Shown here piece by piece: positions 1 through 7,130 of a DNA stretch of 7,130 bases. The first letter of the stretch is position 1; each line of letters starts with the position of its first letter. This stretch comes from Planctomycetota bacterium (GTDB lineage: Bacteria > Planctomycetota > Phycisphaerae > WQYP01). Below the pieces are notes generated by a model. The model was not told the DNA's origin and did not search any database. It saw nothing but the letters and a program-made list of their open reading frames with translations. Made by a program: the position numbers and the translations under genes. The stretch spans positions 1 through 7,130 of the forward strand of contig JAKCCC010000091.1 in the NCBI GenBank assembly GCA_021838985.1, given 5' to 3'.

Positions 1-1672
1 GTGACGGCAGTTGAACGCCCTTATATTTCAGCGATGGATCCGCCGCCCAGCGACGCGCTTCGCGGAAACAGTAGTCGGCGACCCGGTTGGCCCGCGCCAA
101 AAATCCCAGTTCCGTGATTTCCTGTAAACTGCGACCCAAGTCCCGTCCCCACGACATGCCAGCGTACGCCCCCACGCCATTGCGCCATGTTCCCACCCCG
201 GTATACCACCACTCCGGCGCACCGGGGGTCGAAGTGTGGTACATTCCGTTGCGGTCGATCTTATCTAAAATGTCCTGAACGTCGTGGTAGAACACGCTGG
301 TAAGAATGTCGGCGTATACGGTTCCGCGGAAGCGAACCCGCGGCCCGTGATAGCCCGCCGGTACGGAGATCGGCAGATGTGCGGGAAAGTCGCCCGGAAT
401 TGTATATAAAAGGCGGCGTAGACGGCCCAAGGCAGCCCGTACCGCCCGGCGTTGGCCGGCCTGTGCCTGCAGGTGGTGACGGGCGAGCCAACGCTTCGCG
501 GCGGAGGTCGGCCGATCGTGCGGCAACGGGCGCCATCCGGGCGCCGGCGCCCCCGTCGGCTGAACCGTTATTCCGGAAATAATCGGTACGCCAGCCCTTT
601 TCGGATTGTCCTGAACACGAATGTCTTGAATCGGAACCGGGCGCGGTGCGATGACGCCCAGGTACGCCGCCCCCCCACCGTGGAGCGGTCGTAGCGCCAA
701 CGTGTGGCGCAGCAGTCGCCGCGCCGTCTGACTGGAAGCAAACGGCTCCGGCGCCATGGCCAGTGGTGCGCCCCACCAGGCACTGTAGCCATAAATCAGC
801 GGATACCGCACGGTTTGGCCGTCGGCGTAATCCAACAGCAGGGTTCCCATTCGCTGACCAATAAAGAGGATATGTCGCCAATCATTGGGGTTGCCCCAGG
901 CCGGTTCTCCCTGATCCCAAGTACCGGTAAATCCAGCCAGGAAAAGCCGCCGCACTGGTTGATTCAAGGGAATGGTCCAGGTGCCGCCGGATTTCATCCG
1001 ACCTCCACCACTTAAAATAAATGGAATTCCCGCAGCCTGAGCATAACCGTGGCTGTCCATTACCGGCGAAAAAGTTTTCGTCGAGGGCAATGGAATCGCG
1101 AATAAACGGCTCCGCGACACGGGAACGTCCAAAGCAATCATTCGTAGACGCGCGAATCCCAACCAAGCGAAGCCGGGACCTGTGCCATGGCGATTGTTAT
1201 CTTGGTCGACCGCTTCGAAGTAAACGGTTTGTCCTTGCAAGCCTGACACCAACCAGGATACGGGCGCGAAAGCGTCCTGCTGCGGTGGCGCCGCCCGCCG
1301 TAAAATCTTCCCGTCGGAGGCCCGCTTCAGAAAATAGGCATTCCAACCATGACCGCCCCACCGACCATCCCAACCATTCGCCAGAAAGCTGACTATGTCT
1401 CCGGAAACAACAAAGTTCGGCGAACGGATTGTGCCGGTGGCCGCTTCCCCACCCGCCTGTGATTCCGGCCGTGGACCAACCGGCCGCCCCGGTCGGGGCG
1501 TATCAACCAGTCCCCATGCGGACCCTGTGGTTTTCCATGGGGCTAAACCGTGGTGAAAAATGCTCAGATTCCAAACGGTACGGCCCGCGAAGGCCCGGCT
1601 GCTTAACGTCCCCAAGCATAGGACCAGGATGGCTGTAAGCCGTAAGGGCTTGTTTATCATCTTGTTCCCCAT
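1..1672 (-). CDS. Secreted multidomain protein, probable alpha/alpha-toroid glycosidase-like enzyme (partial, C-terminus outside window)
   Basis: I translated the minus strand by hand: 557 codons without a stop, continuing past base 1. Residues 1-29 form a signal peptide (basic MGNKMINKPLR, hydrophobic LTAILVLCLGTL, likely cleavage after SRAFA). Residues about 32-178 look like a jelly-roll module (HGLAPWKTTG, TIRSPNFVVSGD, FLANGWDG, DQDNNRHGTGPGFAWLGFARL). Residues about 195-310 look like a second beta-sandwich (GIPFILSGGG, LDYADGQTVRYPL, YSAWW). From about 395 it becomes helical, with EWWYTGVGTWRNG (487-499) and WGRDLGRSLQEITELGF (508-524), the style of (alpha/alpha)6 glycosidases. I do not recognise the exact family, and the catalytic residues may lie outside the window. 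The ATG at 1672 has no Shine-Dalgarno; an in-frame ATG at 1660 follows GGGGA and may be the true start. The gene is divergent from araC. That it is an exported enzyme for a glycan is inference; that it is a real gene is near certain. Confidence 0.87.
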   Translation of the reverse strand, partial: MGNKMINKPLRLTAILVLCLGTLSSRAFAGRTVWNLSIFHHGLAPWKTTGSAWGLVDTPRPGRPVGPRPESQAGGEAATGTIRSPNFVVSGDIVSFLANGWDGRWGGHGWNAYFLKRASDGKILRRAAPPQQDAFAPVSWLVSGLQGQTVYFEAVDQDNNRHGTGPGFAWLGFARLRMIALDVPVSRSRLFAIPLPSTKTFSPVMDSHGYAQAAGIPFILSGGGRMKSGGTWTIPLNQPVRRLFLAGFTGTWDQGEPAWGNPNDWRHILFIGQRMGTLLLDYADGQTVRYPLIYGYSAWWGAPLAMAPEPFASSQTARRLLRHTLALRPLHGGGAAYLGVIAPRPVPIQDIRVQDNPKRAGVPIISGITVQPTGAPAPGWRPLPHDRPTSAAKRWLARHHLQAQAGQRRAVRAALGRLRRLLYTIPGDFPAHLPISVPAGYHGPRVRFRGTVYADILTSVFYHDVQDILDKIDRNGMYHTSTPGAPEWWYTGVGTWRNGVGAYAGMSWGRDLGRSLQEITELGFLARANRVADYCFREARRWAADPSLKYKGVQLPS

Positions 1673-1780
1673 CTGAAAAATCGCGGGGTAGGATGTTCGC
1701 GAAGACCCCACCCGCGACAAGGTCTGCACAGGCGACTCCTGGAACGGGGCTAGGCGACGCGTTGCCGTATCGCCCAGCCT

Positions 1781-1946
1781 CGCCGCGTTGCGGCGCACGC
1801 CCCGGGCTTACGCCCCGGGGCTACCGCTTTGTCGGCACTTAGCTTTCAGGCACTCCGTCCAAAAGCCGTCCACCGGGTCGCCGCGGGCGACCTAAAGCCC
1901 GGTGCCGCGGGTTCGGTGGCAAGTCTGAGGCTCTTGCGCGCACCGG
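1781..1946. repeat. Cluster of GC-rich hairpins, possible REP-like intergenic element
   Basis: Several stem-loops follow one another. CGCCGC at 1781-1786 pairs with GCGGCG at 1790-1795. GCCCCGGG at 1799-1806 pairs with CCCGGGGC at 1814-1821, and ACGCCCCGGG occurs as a direct repeat at 1797-1806 and 1810-1819. CACCGGG at 1871-1877 pairs with CCCGGTG at 1898-1904, enclosing GGTCGCC/GGCGACC (1876-1882 and 1886-1892). CACCGG recurs at 1941-1946 and could pair with the same 1899-1904 copy. The layout resembles repeated palindromic elements scattered between genes in GC-rich bacterial genomes. No second full copy lies in this window, so the repeat nature is unproven. Confidence 0.5.
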
Positions 1947-2150: not shown

Positions 2151-3023
2151 ATGCAAGAACCAGCTACCGCCCACGATCTGCCCACGCCTTTCTACACGGG
2201 ACACATCGCCCCTCAAACCGGATGGTCCATAGCGCCGCATCAGCATGACCATGACCAGCTTATCATGGTTTTGCAGGGACAAATTGAAGCCAACATCGCC
2301 GACCTGGTCTTGCGCGGTGAATCCGGCAGCGTGCTGTTTTATCCGCAAGGGATTCCACATCAGGAAAGATCTATCGGCCGCGGCGTGCTGGAGACGCTTT
2401 ATGTAGGCTTCCGTACCGCTGCCCACGGCATTCATCTGGGGGCAAGGCCAACCATCAGCTTCGACCAAACCGGCCGCATTCGCATGTTGATGCAATGGAT
2501 GCATGAGTTGACCTCCTCTCCGCAGAAGGATCGCGAGCTCACGCAAGCTGCCCTGCTGCAGGCGGTGCTGGAAGAGGCGGTCCGCCATCCGGAATACACC
2601 GTCAGTTCCGAGCAAATCGTGCGCACGGCGGTCCGGTATATGCGGGAAAAGTTGGCCGAGCCGCTGCGTTTGGCCGATATCGCGAAAATCGTTAACGTAT
2701 CCGCTTTTCATTTCAGCCGTATCTTTCGGCGGCATACCGGGCAGACGCCGATGCGTTTTCTGGCAAAATGCCGCGTTGAAGCAGCCCATAGCCTTCTGCA
2801 AAGTTCCACACTCCCGATGAAGGCCATCGCCCGGCGCACGGGGCTGAGCGACCCTTTTCATTTTTCCCGAACATTTCGCCGTCTGGTGGGCTATCCGCCC
2901 AGCCGGGTGCGACGGCCAGAGTTGTCGTTGGAGGCTGTATCAGCTCCCCGCCACCAAGCGCGCCCCGGTGCCGGTAACCGCTCTCCGACGCGGCGCTTAT
3001 CCCGGCGCGCCGGGATAAGGTGA
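2151..3023 (+). CDS. AraC-family transcriptional regulator with N-terminal cupin domain
   Basis: The 290-residue protein has the usual AraC two-part layout. Residues about 20-90 form a cupin-type sensor with the histidine cluster PHQHDHDQ (29-36) and the turn YPQGIPH (64-70); in this family the pocket often binds a sugar or other small ligand. Residues about 155-255 form the DNA-binding domain: a first helix-turn-helix at LRLADIAKIVNVSAFHFSR (172-190) and a second at MKAIARRTGLSDPFHFSR (223-240), followed by RRLVGYPPS (243-251). The ATG at 2151 is the only reasonable start, because an in-frame TGA lies at 2118-2120. Residues 256-290 are a basic, low-complexity tail beyond the conserved fold. 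The gene is convergent with GH2 and divergent from the left secreted protein, a typical position for a local regulator of carbohydrate genes. The ligand is unknown. Confidence 0.95.
   Translation: MQEPATAHDLPTPFYTGHIAPQTGWSIAPHQHDHDQLIMVLQGQIEANIADLVLRGESGSVLFYPQGIPHQERSIGRGVLETLYVGFRTAAHGIHLGARPTISFDQTGRIRMLMQWMHELTSSPQKDRELTQAALLQAVLEEAVRHPEYTVSSEQIVRTAVRYMREKLAEPLRLADIAKIVNVSAFHFSRIFRRHTGQTPMRFLAKCRVEAAHSLLQSSTLPMKAIARRTGLSDPFHFSRTFRRLVGYPPSRVRRPELSLEAVSAPRHQARPGAGNRSPTRRLSRRAGIR
2996..3019. repeat. Perfect 24-base palindrome overlapping the araC 3' end
   Basis: CTTATCCCGGCG at 2996-3007 is followed directly by its exact reverse complement at 3008-3019, ending two bases before the araC stop codon. 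It may fold as a hairpin in either convergent transcript, but no T-run follows on either strand, so it is not a canonical intrinsic terminator. It could equally be a binding site for a dimeric protein or a palindromic repeat element. Confidence 0.6.
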
Positions 3024-3098: not shown

Positions 3099-6000
3099 TC
3101 AGCGCCGTGACCAACCCGCGGCCGGCACCCTGGGCCGAGTTCCCACCGCAGCGTCGCGGCGAGACGGATCACGCCGGTTACGCCGGGCCGGTTCCTGCAG
3201 GGCCTGATGGATCGGCTGATAATAATAATGAAAGCCGGGGTACCAGGGCCGGTTGTAGGCACCATTAAGTCCGTCGTGCGTGGAATCGTCCCAAATACGG
3301 TCGTGACCCGCATAGATGCCGCCATGCCAATCCGGCCCCCAGAAGTGCCCTTGGCTCGTCGCCAGCAGATCACCGGGCAACAGAACGTCCCGGTCAGAGA
3401 AGTACACCCAGTGCCGATCGGGGTAGGTGTTCACCGGAATTCCACCTGGTAGGTTGAGCCAGCGTGCTTTGACATAAGGGTGCGGATAGTAATCCCCGGC
3501 GTGCGGTGAGCCATTGGCCAGAATGGCATTCCACACTTGTCGGCAGTAGCCGTAGCAATCACCAATCCCATTAAATTGATAGGGTCGGTTCCACGGGGCA
3601 AGGCCGGCGCATCGGGCCATGACCAATTTTTGCAGCACGGCGCCGCATTGGCCGGCCTTGATCAAGGCGTCGATACGCTCCGGTGTGGTGCCGGTTAAGA
3701 TGACCAACACCCGCGGTGGCAGGCCACGGGCCGTGGCGGTGAGGGTAATGCGGCCGGGCCGATCGCCGGCGCGCACCAGCGCCATCCCTAGTCCGTGAAA
3801 AACCCGCACCTGATGCCCCACGTTCGATTCATGATTGGCCGGGTTGCCATTGGCTACGCCGGCCAGCGTACCGGCGCCGGTAACGGTAAAGCGCACCAAG
3901 TTAGCGGCACGCGCCACCACCGTGCCATGGGCGTCAACAACCGCCACTGCCACCGGGGCCAGGCTTTCGCCATCCGCGGGTAGCGTGGCTACCTCGTCCG
4001 TTAAGCGCAGACGCGCCGGCGGCCCGGCGGTCCGATTCACATAGGTCGCCACTACCCGTCCGGCGTCGTAGCCGTAGGCGGTAAGAACTCCCGGCCGGTA
4101 CGGCACCTGCCAATCCAGGTAGCGGTATTTCGGCATGCGCTGGGCGCCCAAGCTACGGCCGTTAAGCTCCAGCTTCACCCGCTGGCAGTTGGAATAAACG
4201 CGCACCAGGATCGGTTTCCCGTCCAACGACTGCGGCAAATCCCAAGCCGGGAAGGCGTAGATGGACGGCTGCTTGGTCCACCAGGCGTGCCAATAGTAAT
4301 AGTCCGGCTTGGGAAAGCCGCAGAGATCCATCATCCCGGTGCGATTGCTGACATCTGGCCAACCAATGGGGTTAGGCTCGCCACGGTAATCAAAGCCGGT
4401 CCAGAGAAATGCGCCGGCGACGAAAGGATGCCCCATCACCGCCCGCCAGGTATGCCAGGGGCGATGGCCCCAGACATAAACCGTTTTTCCGTGTTGAATC
4501 CAAGTACCGTATTCATTGATATGCCCCGCGGGTACGTTGGTCCGGTAGACGCCCCGATCACTGTAGGAGTTGGAATCTTCACTACCGAAGATCATTTTGT
4601 TGGGAATGTCCCGGTGAACCCGGGCATAGAGACCTGTGCCATAATTGCAGCCGACAATATTTTCCACCTTCATAAACCCGTGGCCAAAAAAAGACTTGGT
4701 TCGCGGAAATTGAGCATAGGCACAGGTAATCGGCCGGGTCGGATCAATCTGGTGAACCACTTTCATCATGGCCTGGAAGACTTTTCTGCCATAAGGACTC
4801 GATTCAATCCAGACTTCTTCATTGCCCAGCGACCACATTATGATGCAGGGATAGTTGCGCTCCTGCAGAATCATCGCTTTCAGATCAGCCAGTTTCGAAT
4901 ACGGCGCTCCGGGCGGCGTTTTCGGCGAATACACATCCCCCATATGCCGATTTTCATCCATAACCAGCATCCCCAAACGGTCGCAGGCCCGGTAAAACGC
5001 GCGGGCGAGGGGATTATGCGCCGTCCGGTAGGCATTGGCCCCCAAGGCTTTGAGTTTTTTAATCCGCCAAAACCACAGGTTATCCGGCGCCCCAATGCCC
5101 ACCGCGGGAAAATCCTGGTGGTTGCATGTGCCTTGGATCTCCACATGCCGACCGTTCAGAAAGAAACCCTGATTCGGATCAAAGCGCATGGTGCGTATGC
5201 CGAAGGTGGTGCGCTTGGCGTCAACCGTTTTATGGCGCACACGAAGCAAGGTCATTAAATGATATAGATTCCGATGGCGCAAGGACCATAAATGGGCTAC
5301 GCTTAGCGCCACGTGCTGCGCAAAAACGGCGCTCTGGCCGGCCGGCAGACTTTCAGCGGTTGCCGCCCGCGCGACTCGCTTTCCACTGGGCCCGGAAACC
5401 ACCGAGACCAGAGTGAAGCGCCGGGCGGTGTGGTGGTGATTGTCCACCGTGGTTTGAATCGTGAGCTGAGCGGCGGCTTGATCCCCAGTGGGTGAACCAT
5501 AGTGGATCGGACCGGACACCCGGCTGATAACGAACGTTCCCCACGGCGCTACATGCAGTTTACCAGTCACGATCAGCCGCACATGGCGATAGATGCCTCC
5601 GCCTTCATACCACCAGCCCTCAAACCAGCGCGGATCAACGAAAACCGTCAAGGTATTGGGCCGGGTAAAATGAACAAATCGGCCGATGCTGTAACGGAAG
5701 GCGGTGTAACCACTGGGGTGCTGACCCACCGGGCGGCCATTAACCAATACCACCGCATCGCGGTACACGCCGCCAAAATTCAGCCAAATGGTTTTGTTCC
5801 GGGCCGTGGAGGGCAAGGTGAATGTCCGCCGATACCAAGCCGGATAGACCGGCAGCGAACCGTGGCCGGGATTGGCCCGGTGGGTGAAGCGGCCCGCCAC
5901 GATATAGTCGTTGGGAAGCTGCACCGGTTTCCACAGGCCCTTCGGCCATGGGCAGTGCATATGCCGGACCAGCCAGCCGCTCAACACGGGCATGGACATC

Positions 6001-6200
6001 CACCGATGGAAGTTTGGCATTCGGTGGATCAACCAGCCCTTATCCAACCCGTAGACTTGGCGGACGGCTGGCATCGTCGGGGCGGCGGTTGGTCGCAGCG
6101 CCGCGGGCGCCAGTTGCGCCGGGCGCCCCACTGCGGCCACCGAGGCTAAGGTCATGGCAAGGGTTCCCCCCACCAGCATTCGACGCAAACACGAAATCAT
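3099..6200 (-). CDS. Secreted GH2 glycosidase (beta-galactosidase/beta-glucuronidase type) with C-terminal NlpC/P60-like domain
   Basis: The 1033-residue protein starts with a signal peptide (about 1-25: CLRR, then hydrophobic MLVGGTLAMTLASVAAVG). The GH2 domains follow in order: N-terminal sugar-binding beta-sandwich (about 48-215), immunoglobulin-like sandwich (222-335), TIM barrel (338-645), a DUF4982-like domain (655-722) and a GH2 C-terminal beta domain (728-836). The catalytic acid/base is E461 in MWSLGNEE and the nucleophile is E541 in IFGSE; YRTAHNP (391-397) is the usual barrel motif. It should cleave a terminal beta-linked sugar outside the cytoplasm, but galactose versus glucuronic acid cannot be decided here. 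Residues about 838-1000 are an additional domain resembling NlpC/P60 cysteine peptidases: C882 in GDCYGYCRQVW, LLPGDLL (940-946), and H959 in HGGIYAG. The last 30 residues are arginine-rich and probably unstructured. The start is fixed by an in-frame TAG at 6228-6230 and a good ribosome-binding site. The gene lies 180 bases downstream of the sulfatase on the same strand. Confidence 0.96.
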   Translation of the reverse strand: MISCLRRMLVGGTLAMTLASVAAVGRPAQLAPAALRPTAAPTMPAVRQVYGLDKGWLIHRMPNFHRWMSMPVLSGWLVRHMHCPWPKGLWKPVQLPNDYIVAGRFTHRANPGHGSLPVYPAWYRRTFTLPSTARNKTIWLNFGGVYRDAVVLVNGRPVGQHPSGYTAFRYSIGRFVHFTRPNTLTVFVDPRWFEGWWYEGGGIYRHVRLIVTGKLHVAPWGTFVISRVSGPIHYGSPTGDQAAAQLTIQTTVDNHHHTARRFTLVSVVSGPSGKRVARAATAESLPAGQSAVFAQHVALSVAHLWSLRHRNLYHLMTLLRVRHKTVDAKRTTFGIRTMRFDPNQGFFLNGRHVEIQGTCNHQDFPAVGIGAPDNLWFWRIKKLKALGANAYRTAHNPLARAFYRACDRLGMLVMDENRHMGDVYSPKTPPGAPYSKLADLKAMILQERNYPCIIMWSLGNEEVWIESSPYGRKVFQAMMKVVHQIDPTRPITCAYAQFPRTKSFFGHGFMKVENIVGCNYGTGLYARVHRDIPNKMIFGSEDSNSYSDRGVYRTNVPAGHINEYGTWIQHGKTVYVWGHRPWHTWRAVMGHPFVAGAFLWTGFDYRGEPNPIGWPDVSNRTGMMDLCGFPKPDYYYWHAWWTKQPSIYAFPAWDLPQSLDGKPILVRVYSNCQRVKLELNGRSLGAQRMPKYRYLDWQVPYRPGVLTAYGYDAGRVVATYVNRTAGPPARLRLTDEVATLPADGESLAPVAVAVVDAHGTVVARAANLVRFTVTGAGTLAGVANGNPANHESNVGHQVRVFHGLGMALVRAGDRPGRITLTATARGLPPRVLVILTGTTPERIDALIKAGQCGAVLQKLVMARCAGLAPWNRPYQFNGIGDCYGYCRQVWNAILANGSPHAGDYYPHPYVKARWLNLPGGIPVNTYPDRHWVYFSDRDVLLPGDLLATSQGHFWGPDWHGGIYAGHDRIWDDSTHDGLNGAYNRPWYPGFHYYYQPIHQALQEPARRNRRDPSRRDAAVGTRPRVPAAGWSRR
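3201..3689 (-). other. NlpC/P60-like cysteine peptidase/amidase domain within the GH2 protein
   Basis: This sub-region encodes residues about 838-1000. It follows the family pattern: D881-C882 at the start of a helix (YGYCRQVWNAI), about 60 residues later PGDLL, then H959-GGIYAG. Aligned with the family's HVGIYxGNGxxIHA, the third polar catalytic position falls on D971 (RIWDDS), where His, Asn or Gln is more usual. Members of the fold cut peptidoglycan peptides or related amide bonds. Whether this copy is active, and on what substrate, is unknown. The assignment rests on motif spacing alone. Confidence 0.65.
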
Positions 6201-6380: not shown

Positions 6381-7130
6381 CTAGGGATAATACGGCCACC
6401 GATCAAGGCGCGGCCGCGCTTCGCCCGCCTCCACCATGCGCTCGATGAGCCGACGACGCAAGTCCGCGGTTACCTGCACCATCGAGCGGTCGCCAACGTA
6501 GTGCACCAGCGCGGGCGGATCCGCACGGCCGGCCAGATTGACCAGTTGGGCCGGATCGGCCCGGTTATTATAAAGTTGATAATCCCGGTAGCGCCGGCTG
6601 CCAGAGGTGTGGATCGGGTTCAAACCCGGCGCCAGCGCCACATAGGTCCATTGGTCGTCGCGCAGGGCGCGGGCGACCTCTGATTCGCTGATCTGGATGA
6701 AGACCTCATTACGCCAGGCCGCCCGGGCCTTGGCATCGTGCAGCAGCGGCATAAAACTTCGGCCCTGCATGCAGGTCGGAATCGGTAAACCCAGGTGGTC
6801 CAGCAGCGAGGGCGTTAAATCAATCATGCCAACCAGTTCATCGATGACGCGGCGGTGATTGAAGCCCGGCCCCTGGATCATCAGCGGACAATGAATGGAA
6901 CTTTCATGGGGGCTGCGTTTGTACTCGGTATTGCGCGTGCGGAAATGGCAGCCATGGTCGCTCAGGAAGATCACCAACGTGTTCTTTTCCAGGTTTTCTT
7001 CCTGGAGCACCTGGAAAATCCGGCCCATGGATTCATCAATGGCCTGGCAGTCGCCGTAATAATTGGCCAACTGATACGGCCAGTCGCCGGGGAGCGCGCG
7101 CAGGTCGAGCGGGGCATAGGGGTTGCGGAA
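6381..7130 (-). CDS. Sulfatase, alkaline-phosphatase superfamily (partial, N-terminus outside window)
   Basis: The frame is open from the right window edge to the TAG at 6381-6383, giving the last 249 residues. The first visible residues (NPYAPLDLRALPGDWPYQLA) lead into YYGDCQAIDESMGRIFQVLQ, the usual sulfatase helix before the metal site. TLVIFLSDHG (visible residues 51-60) carries the Asp-His metal ligands, and EYKRSPHES (69-77) supplies the Lys/His that contact the sulfate. ELVGMIDLTPSLLDHLGLP follows, then the C-terminal subdomain with YQLYNNRADPAQLVNLAG. The formylglycine motif (C/S-x-P-x-R) and any signal peptide lie outside the window, so substrate and export cannot be judged. The TTG at 7070 is an internal leucine codon, not the start. 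With GH2 downstream on the same strand, it probably removes sulfate from a glycan that GH2 then cleaves. Confidence 0.95.
   Translation of the reverse strand, partial: FRNPYAPLDLRALPGDWPYQLANYYGDCQAIDESMGRIFQVLQEENLEKNTLVIFLSDHGCHFRTRNTEYKRSPHESSIHCPLMIQGPGFNHRRVIDELVGMIDLTPSLLDHLGLPIPTCMQGRSFMPLLHDAKARAAWRNEVFIQISESEVARALRDDQWTYVALAPGLNPIHTSGSRRYRDYQLYNNRADPAQLVNLAGRADPPALVHYVGDRSMVQVTADLRRRLIERMVEAGEARPRLDRWPYYP

Follow-up and report, generated by a model that had tools for sequence, protein, structure and literature searches.

The stretch of DNA analysed here, to which we refer as the window, comprises positions 1 to 7,130 of contig JAKCCC010000091.1 from a Planctomycetota bacterium of the class Phycisphaerae (assembly GCA_021838985.1; genome G000 below), and its central gene encodes, in one frame, a glycoside hydrolase of family 2 (GH2) followed by a domain, here called the tail, that resembles NlpC/P60 cysteine peptidases. 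The reading that we favour, and consider reasonably probable, is that the product is a secreted GH2 exo-beta-galactosidase joined to a cysteine peptidase of the NlpC/P60 superfamily that acts on cell-wall peptides. The gene and its parts are as follows.

3099..6200, reverse strand: whole fused gene, 1033 amino acids from ATG to stop (open reading frame)
6096..6200, reverse strand: N-terminal export signal, approximately residues 1-35 (judged by eye from the sequence)
3690..5948, reverse strand: GH2 enzyme, residues 85-837 (sugar-binding, Ig-like, TIM barrel, DUF4982 and C5 domains), GalA/GalB-like (Pfam, NCBIfam and PDB relatives)
4818..4820, reverse strand: E461, presumed GH2 acid/base, in N460-E461 (kept in 33/33 aligned rows)
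4578..4580, reverse strand: E541, presumed GH2 nucleophile (kept in 33/33 aligned rows)
3195..3689, reverse strand: NlpC/P60-like tail domain, residues 838-1002, 165 residues (family search and predicted fold)
3579..3581, reverse strand: Y874, possible fourth active-site residue, a Tyr before the Cys (Y in 26/26 rows with a residue there)
3555..3557, reverse strand: C882, predicted nucleophile (27/27 rows)
3324..3326, reverse strand: H959, predicted catalytic His (27/27 rows), where a core strand of the model begins
3288..3290, reverse strand: D971, predicted third catalytic residue, on the strand after that of H959 (D in 26/27 rows, Q in 1/27)
3102..3194, reverse strand: Arg/Pro-rich C-terminal extension, residues 1003-1033, 31 residues (dN/dS 0.475, 9 changes)

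The fused protein and its GH2 part

All 1033 codons are open from the ATG without interruption, and the tail directly abuts the GH2 part, with no linker in between. The GH2 N, Ig-like, TIM barrel, DUF4982 and C5 domains exceed their Pfam cut-offs, the last of them ending at residue 830, and 28 of 30 non-fused GH2 relatives stop, in the alignment, no more than about 11 residues past 837, the other two doing so within 27. An earlier reading of this DNA from its letters alone (the sequence-only reading) had placed the end of a complete GH2 enzyme near residue 836, with the same frame running on beyond it, and in both respects it agrees with these results. It had likewise named E461 and E541, the positions of the acid/base and the nucleophile in GH2 enzymes; both are present in every row of an alignment made of the window, P0002 (a fused protein described below), the locus L006 and 30 of the 119 other relatives among the matches listed. 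Four of the best five PDB relatives of this part carry the name beta-galactosidase and, judging from the sequence, it is likely an exo-beta-galactosidase. Its domain order up to residue 837 and its two catalytic glutamates are those of the GH2 beta-galactosidases GalA and GalB. Unlike these relatives, however, it carries a tail: among the best 120 of 2826 matched GH2 proteins, only P0002 spans this region, while the rest cover at most 83% of residues 80-1005. The other close GH2 gene of the window genome (L002, 979 amino acids) is also without a tail. As for export, the signal was assigned by eye, and no lipobox was found in a signal-like position of the fused protein, where the pattern matched only MISC at the start codon.

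The tail as a protein family

The tail of the window matched no Pfam or NCBIfam family, CHAP included, and a PHROG search returned a single match with an E-value of 0.3. A search with the tail alone against 5.8 billion proteins, on the other hand, returned 23 proteins of 153-286 amino acids without GH2, 49-73% identical to it, of which two are labelled Verrucomicrobiae and just one bears a precomputed Pfam domain (PF07602). A simple lipobox pattern, sought past residue 9, marks eleven of the 23 as lipoprotein-like, all nine of P0003-P0011 among them. We aligned the tail in 27 rows, namely those of the window, its fused relative, three loci and 22 of the 23 tail-only proteins, leaving out P0016, a longer form of P0015. 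Eleven positions are invariant in all rows (D881, C882, G884, Y885, G943, D944, H959, G961, A964, G965 and W970), and it is because of this identity across the alignment that the tail motifs cannot be put down to chance. In the tree built for the tail, the two fused tails form a branch of their own (support 100/100, stem 0.79), which is one of four groups meeting at an unresolved fork.

Elsewhere in that tree, the tail relative of locus L011 clusters with L009, L010 and P0022, among which are two Myxococcota or Deltaproteobacteria records. The L011 record itself bears the title Phycisphaera mikurensis isolate FI88_71_9, and its contig may be misbinned; its sequence is also found in L040.

Predicted fold and active site

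The structure was predicted for residues 838-1010, the best model having a predicted local distance difference test score (pLDDT) of 80 and a predicted template modelling score of 0.82. Its best structural matches are NlpC/P60 and CHAP-type papain-like hydrolases, and the first rows returned by Foldseek are of the NlpC/P60 type. C882 lies two residues ahead of helix 47-59 of the model (residues 884-896), and the predicted catalytic order is Cys, His and a polar residue, that is, C882, H959 and D971 in the non-permuted arrangement; the circularly permuted order of the lecithin-retinol-acyltransferase type was rejected because the Cys precedes the His. The 12 residues between H959 and D971 equal the gap between two aligned histidines of the NlpC/P60 autolysin 7cfl, D971 taking the place of the second. 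From the topology of the model, the three residues would cluster in space. The motifs that the sequence-only reading had picked out, namely C882, PGDLL (942-946), HGGIYAG (959-965) and D971 as the third catalytic position, are thus all in place, and its assignment of the tail to an NlpC/P60-like fold is borne out by the prediction; the one component that did not follow is a Pfam match at the cut-off. Taken together, the tail is very probably an NlpC/P60-type domain that bears an active site.

Recurrence of the fusion, selection and origin

The sequence-only reading had proposed looking for the same fusion in related genomes, and it is indeed present in a second genome of the same genus, G001 (locus L006), with the same join and 96% identity between the proteins. 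Between the two fused genes, the synonymous divergence (dS) is 0.145 and the ratio of nonsynonymous to synonymous rates (dN/dS) is 0.114 for the GH2 part, 0.157 for the tail, a value resting on few changes (9 synonymous and 5 nonsynonymous), and 0.475 for the extension past residue 1002, where constraint is weaker than in the other parts. The synonymous rates of the tail and the GH2 part do not differ significantly (Fisher p 0.16). Given the recurrence of the join and these ratios, we regard the fusion as genuine and as maintained by selection. Another copy, P0002, occurs in the protein collection; a single residue (807) sets it apart from the window protein, with which it may share its source. 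It is the only fused protein in a set of 145 candidates whose length would fit the fusion.

In the bacterial family of the window, the tail is present in 5 of 28 genomes: two, from a single genus, have the fusion, and the other three belong to a second genus. In G043, one of these three, the contig end cuts within the tail. The remaining two, G003 and G013, have tail-less GH2 relatives, up to 62% and 67% identical to the fused GH2, respectively, and carry the tail as a separate lipoprotein-type gene, on contigs without GH2 among the matches listed. Here, loci that belong to one genome were counted once (L006/L012/L034/L036 for G001, L007/L031/L037 for G003 and L008/L032/L038 for G013). The phylum and the class were each sampled evenly from a larger group, with 392 and 397 genomes, respectively, and at most seven first-look candidates scored in the rows shown; the tail turned up in 2 (G000 and G231) of the former and in 5 of the latter. 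L040, which belongs to G231, has sequence in common with L011 and was counted once. Finally, none of the 30 stretches of viral contigs that fit the pattern was confirmed as a tail relative and plasmid records gave no match, in a search from which the phage record collection was left out; at the level of sequence, a mobile origin of the tail finds no support.

Genomic neighbourhood

The neighbours of the fused gene, listed here, are conserved in both genomes, at 94-98% identity.

2151..3023, forward strand: AraC-family regulator with a cupin domain (kept in G001, 96% identical)
6381..7130, reverse strand: C-terminal part of a sulfatase that the window end truncates (516 amino acids in G001, 98% identical)
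2..1798, reverse strand: large, likely exported protein, cut by the window end (1002 amino acids in G001, 94% identical)

For the complete 1002-residue protein (L036 2881-5889, reverse strand), sequence searches of Pfam, NCBIfam and PDB returned no match. Two similar proteins with N-terminal methylation motifs are encoded side by side a short way upstream of the sulfatase, at L036 12098-13378 and 13531-14757 on the reverse strand.

The surroundings of the unfused tail genes are as follows. In G003 (L007), the gene ahead of the tail-only gene on the same strand encodes a long-bodied GH25 muramidase that ends in a PEP-CTERM-like sorting sequence (5406-7568, forward strand). In G013 (L008), the product of the gene on the matching side corresponds to the C-terminal part of this muramidase (76% identity), and the contig stops before any GH25 domain. 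On the other side lie an outer-membrane efflux protein in L007 and a GxGYxYP putative glycoside hydrolase in L008. The tail frames of L009 and L010, from Myxococcota and Deltaproteobacteria metagenome-assembled genomes, carry one and two SH3_5 domains, respectively, and that of L011 a ricin-type lectin. The position of tail relatives beside a muramidase gene, or together with SH3 domains, favours a cell-wall peptide as the substrate of the tail. Of the 28 genomes of the family, only G008 gave a match to PF00877, the NLPC_P60 profile; among the 17 with a completeness of 90% or more, the count is also one. CHAP was found in none of the 4 genomes searched.

Discussion

In the scheme that we propose, a tail-only gene would have fused to a GH2 gene, at its 3' end, in an ancestor of the genus; in the sister genus the product of the tail-only gene would be of the lipoprotein type, with the gene for a secreted GH25-type protein next to it. 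The exported fused polypeptide would remove beta-galactosyl residues from a wall-derived or other bacterial glycan, and the tail would open the peptide part, most likely at the gamma-D-Glu-diaminopimelate bond, a known target of NlpC/P60 enzymes, the outcome being a scavenger able to use cell-wall debris. GH2 enzymes are not known to cut the peptidoglycan backbone. That both sites act on one substrate appears unlikely to us, and we are similarly doubtful about a dedicated two-site enzyme that takes both the sugar and the peptide of a galactose-bearing cell-wall glycopeptide, in a lineage without any other recognised NlpC/P60 gene.

How does the tail compare with known systems? With the NlpC/P60 DL-endopeptidases (MepS/Spr, LytE, Acd24020 and RipA/RipB; PF00877) it shares the fold, as predicted, the order Cys, GD-L, H-GIY-G and polar third residue, the spacing of 12 from His to third residue seen in 7cfl, and likely export. 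Unlike them, it remains under the PF00877 cut-off, has Asp as the third residue and shows conserved blocks of its own (WNRPY, CYGYxRQVWNA, GHxWG and GFHYYY). Having a glycosidase and an NlpC/P60 peptidase in one protein, the fused protein resembles bifunctional wall hydrolases of the CwlT type; however, the glycosidase here is a GH2, whereas CwlT, by the title of a paper cited in PMC6403190, pairs the peptidase with a lysozyme. PMC6403190 describes the CwlT active site as Cys-His-His-Tyr, and by analogy Y874 may be the equivalent of its Tyr. In the available part of PMC11288935, a partnership of lysozyme and NlpC/P60 against peptidoglycan is proposed for Trichomonas, and no GH2-NlpC/P60 fusion is described in that part or in the corresponding part of PMC11396672. 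The main text of PMC12243196, which deals with GH2 subfamilies, contains neither NlpC nor peptidase. What is more, such a fusion is named in no title or abstract start of the literature searched, part of that search having used a phrase unable to match "NlpC/P60". While the fold and the chemistry are known, what would be new, as far as sequences can tell, is a family without a name in the libraries used and a pairing with GH2 that occurs in no other protein among the relatives listed.

That said, several observations weigh against the reading that we favour. Only three of 24 tail-family members match PF00877, all below threshold and the best with an E-value of 0.054; as the cut-off is not reached, the tail is to be seen as a divergent clade and not as a textbook NlpC/P60 member. 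The fold assignment has its own weaknesses: Foldseek returned nothing at E <= 0.001 for the tail model, the five models range in pLDDT from 80 to 52, and pLDDT falls below 50 at residues 873-879, before C882, and 954-956, before H959. The GH2 part scores 774.9 bits against the NCBIfam GalA equivalog, under its cut-off of 900 bits, so the sugar is uncertain and the protein is filed as a GH2 and not as GalA itself. Just two fused genomes were found, and there is a single locus where the GH25 domain itself adjoins a tail gene. Neither fused genome, one of them incomplete, gave a GH25 match, so no muramidase partner is in evidence in either; at 69.5% completeness, absence from G000 is weak evidence. 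Moreover, the sulfatase, the AraC regulator and the 1002-residue, likely exported protein suggest a glycan-use locus, and, on sequence, the first two point to a sulfated glycan rather than to peptidoglycan.

This last point is the core of the alternative that survives best, although we still regard it as improbable, namely that the tail targets glycoproteins, or peptides linked to glycans, in an algal or biofilm matrix rather than peptidoglycan, within a sulfated-glycan locus. The three neighbours accompany the fused gene in both genomes, neither of which gave a GH25 match, and one tail relative carries a DUF1565 match, another the ricin-type lectin; yet other tail relatives adjoin the GH25 muramidase gene or bear SH3_5 domains. 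Somewhat less probable again is that the tail is a CHAP-type or related amidase (N-acetylmuramoyl-L-alanine amidase) and not a DL-endopeptidase. NlpC/P60 and CHAP-type rows are tied for the tail model, which does not settle the choice between endopeptidase and amidase. However, the NlpC/P60-type rows come first, the tail, unlike CHAP endolysin and amidase domains (PF05257), lacks a CHAP profile match, and its H-GIY-G block, W-D motif and 12-residue gap from His to Asp align with 7cfl. There is, further, a small chance that the tail serves to bind wall or glycan, anchoring the galactosidase without cutting, as does RipD, whose NlpC/P60 fold serves for anchoring rather than cutting; pure binding, however, would not need C882 and H959 in every row and D971 in all but one. 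Lastly, an assembly artefact or a recent, functionless loss of a stop codon, which the short window contig (7130 bases) and the fragmented assembly (579 contigs) might suggest, is largely refuted by the second genome with the same join at a dS of 0.145 and a tail dN/dS of 0.157, as well as by the tail-only gene in G003 and G013, which stands on contigs without GH2 among the matches listed.

The rarity of PF00877 in the family of the window raises the separate question of what opens the peptidoglycan cross-links in these bacteria.

Given that rarity, the clade to which the tail belongs may be the main enzyme of the superfamily in those genomes, 5 of 28, where it is present. The analysis brings to light a conserved and mostly exported-looking family of the NlpC/P60 type that the Pfam profiles used had missed. 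The pairing of a likely sugar-removing GH2 with a predicted cell-wall peptidase would point to a glycan-decorated peptide as the substrate. If the fused protein is truly a two-site enzyme, it would be the first GH2-NlpC/P60 enzyme and, if our reading holds, the first described member of a family common to Planctomycetota, Verrucomicrobiae and Myxococcota.
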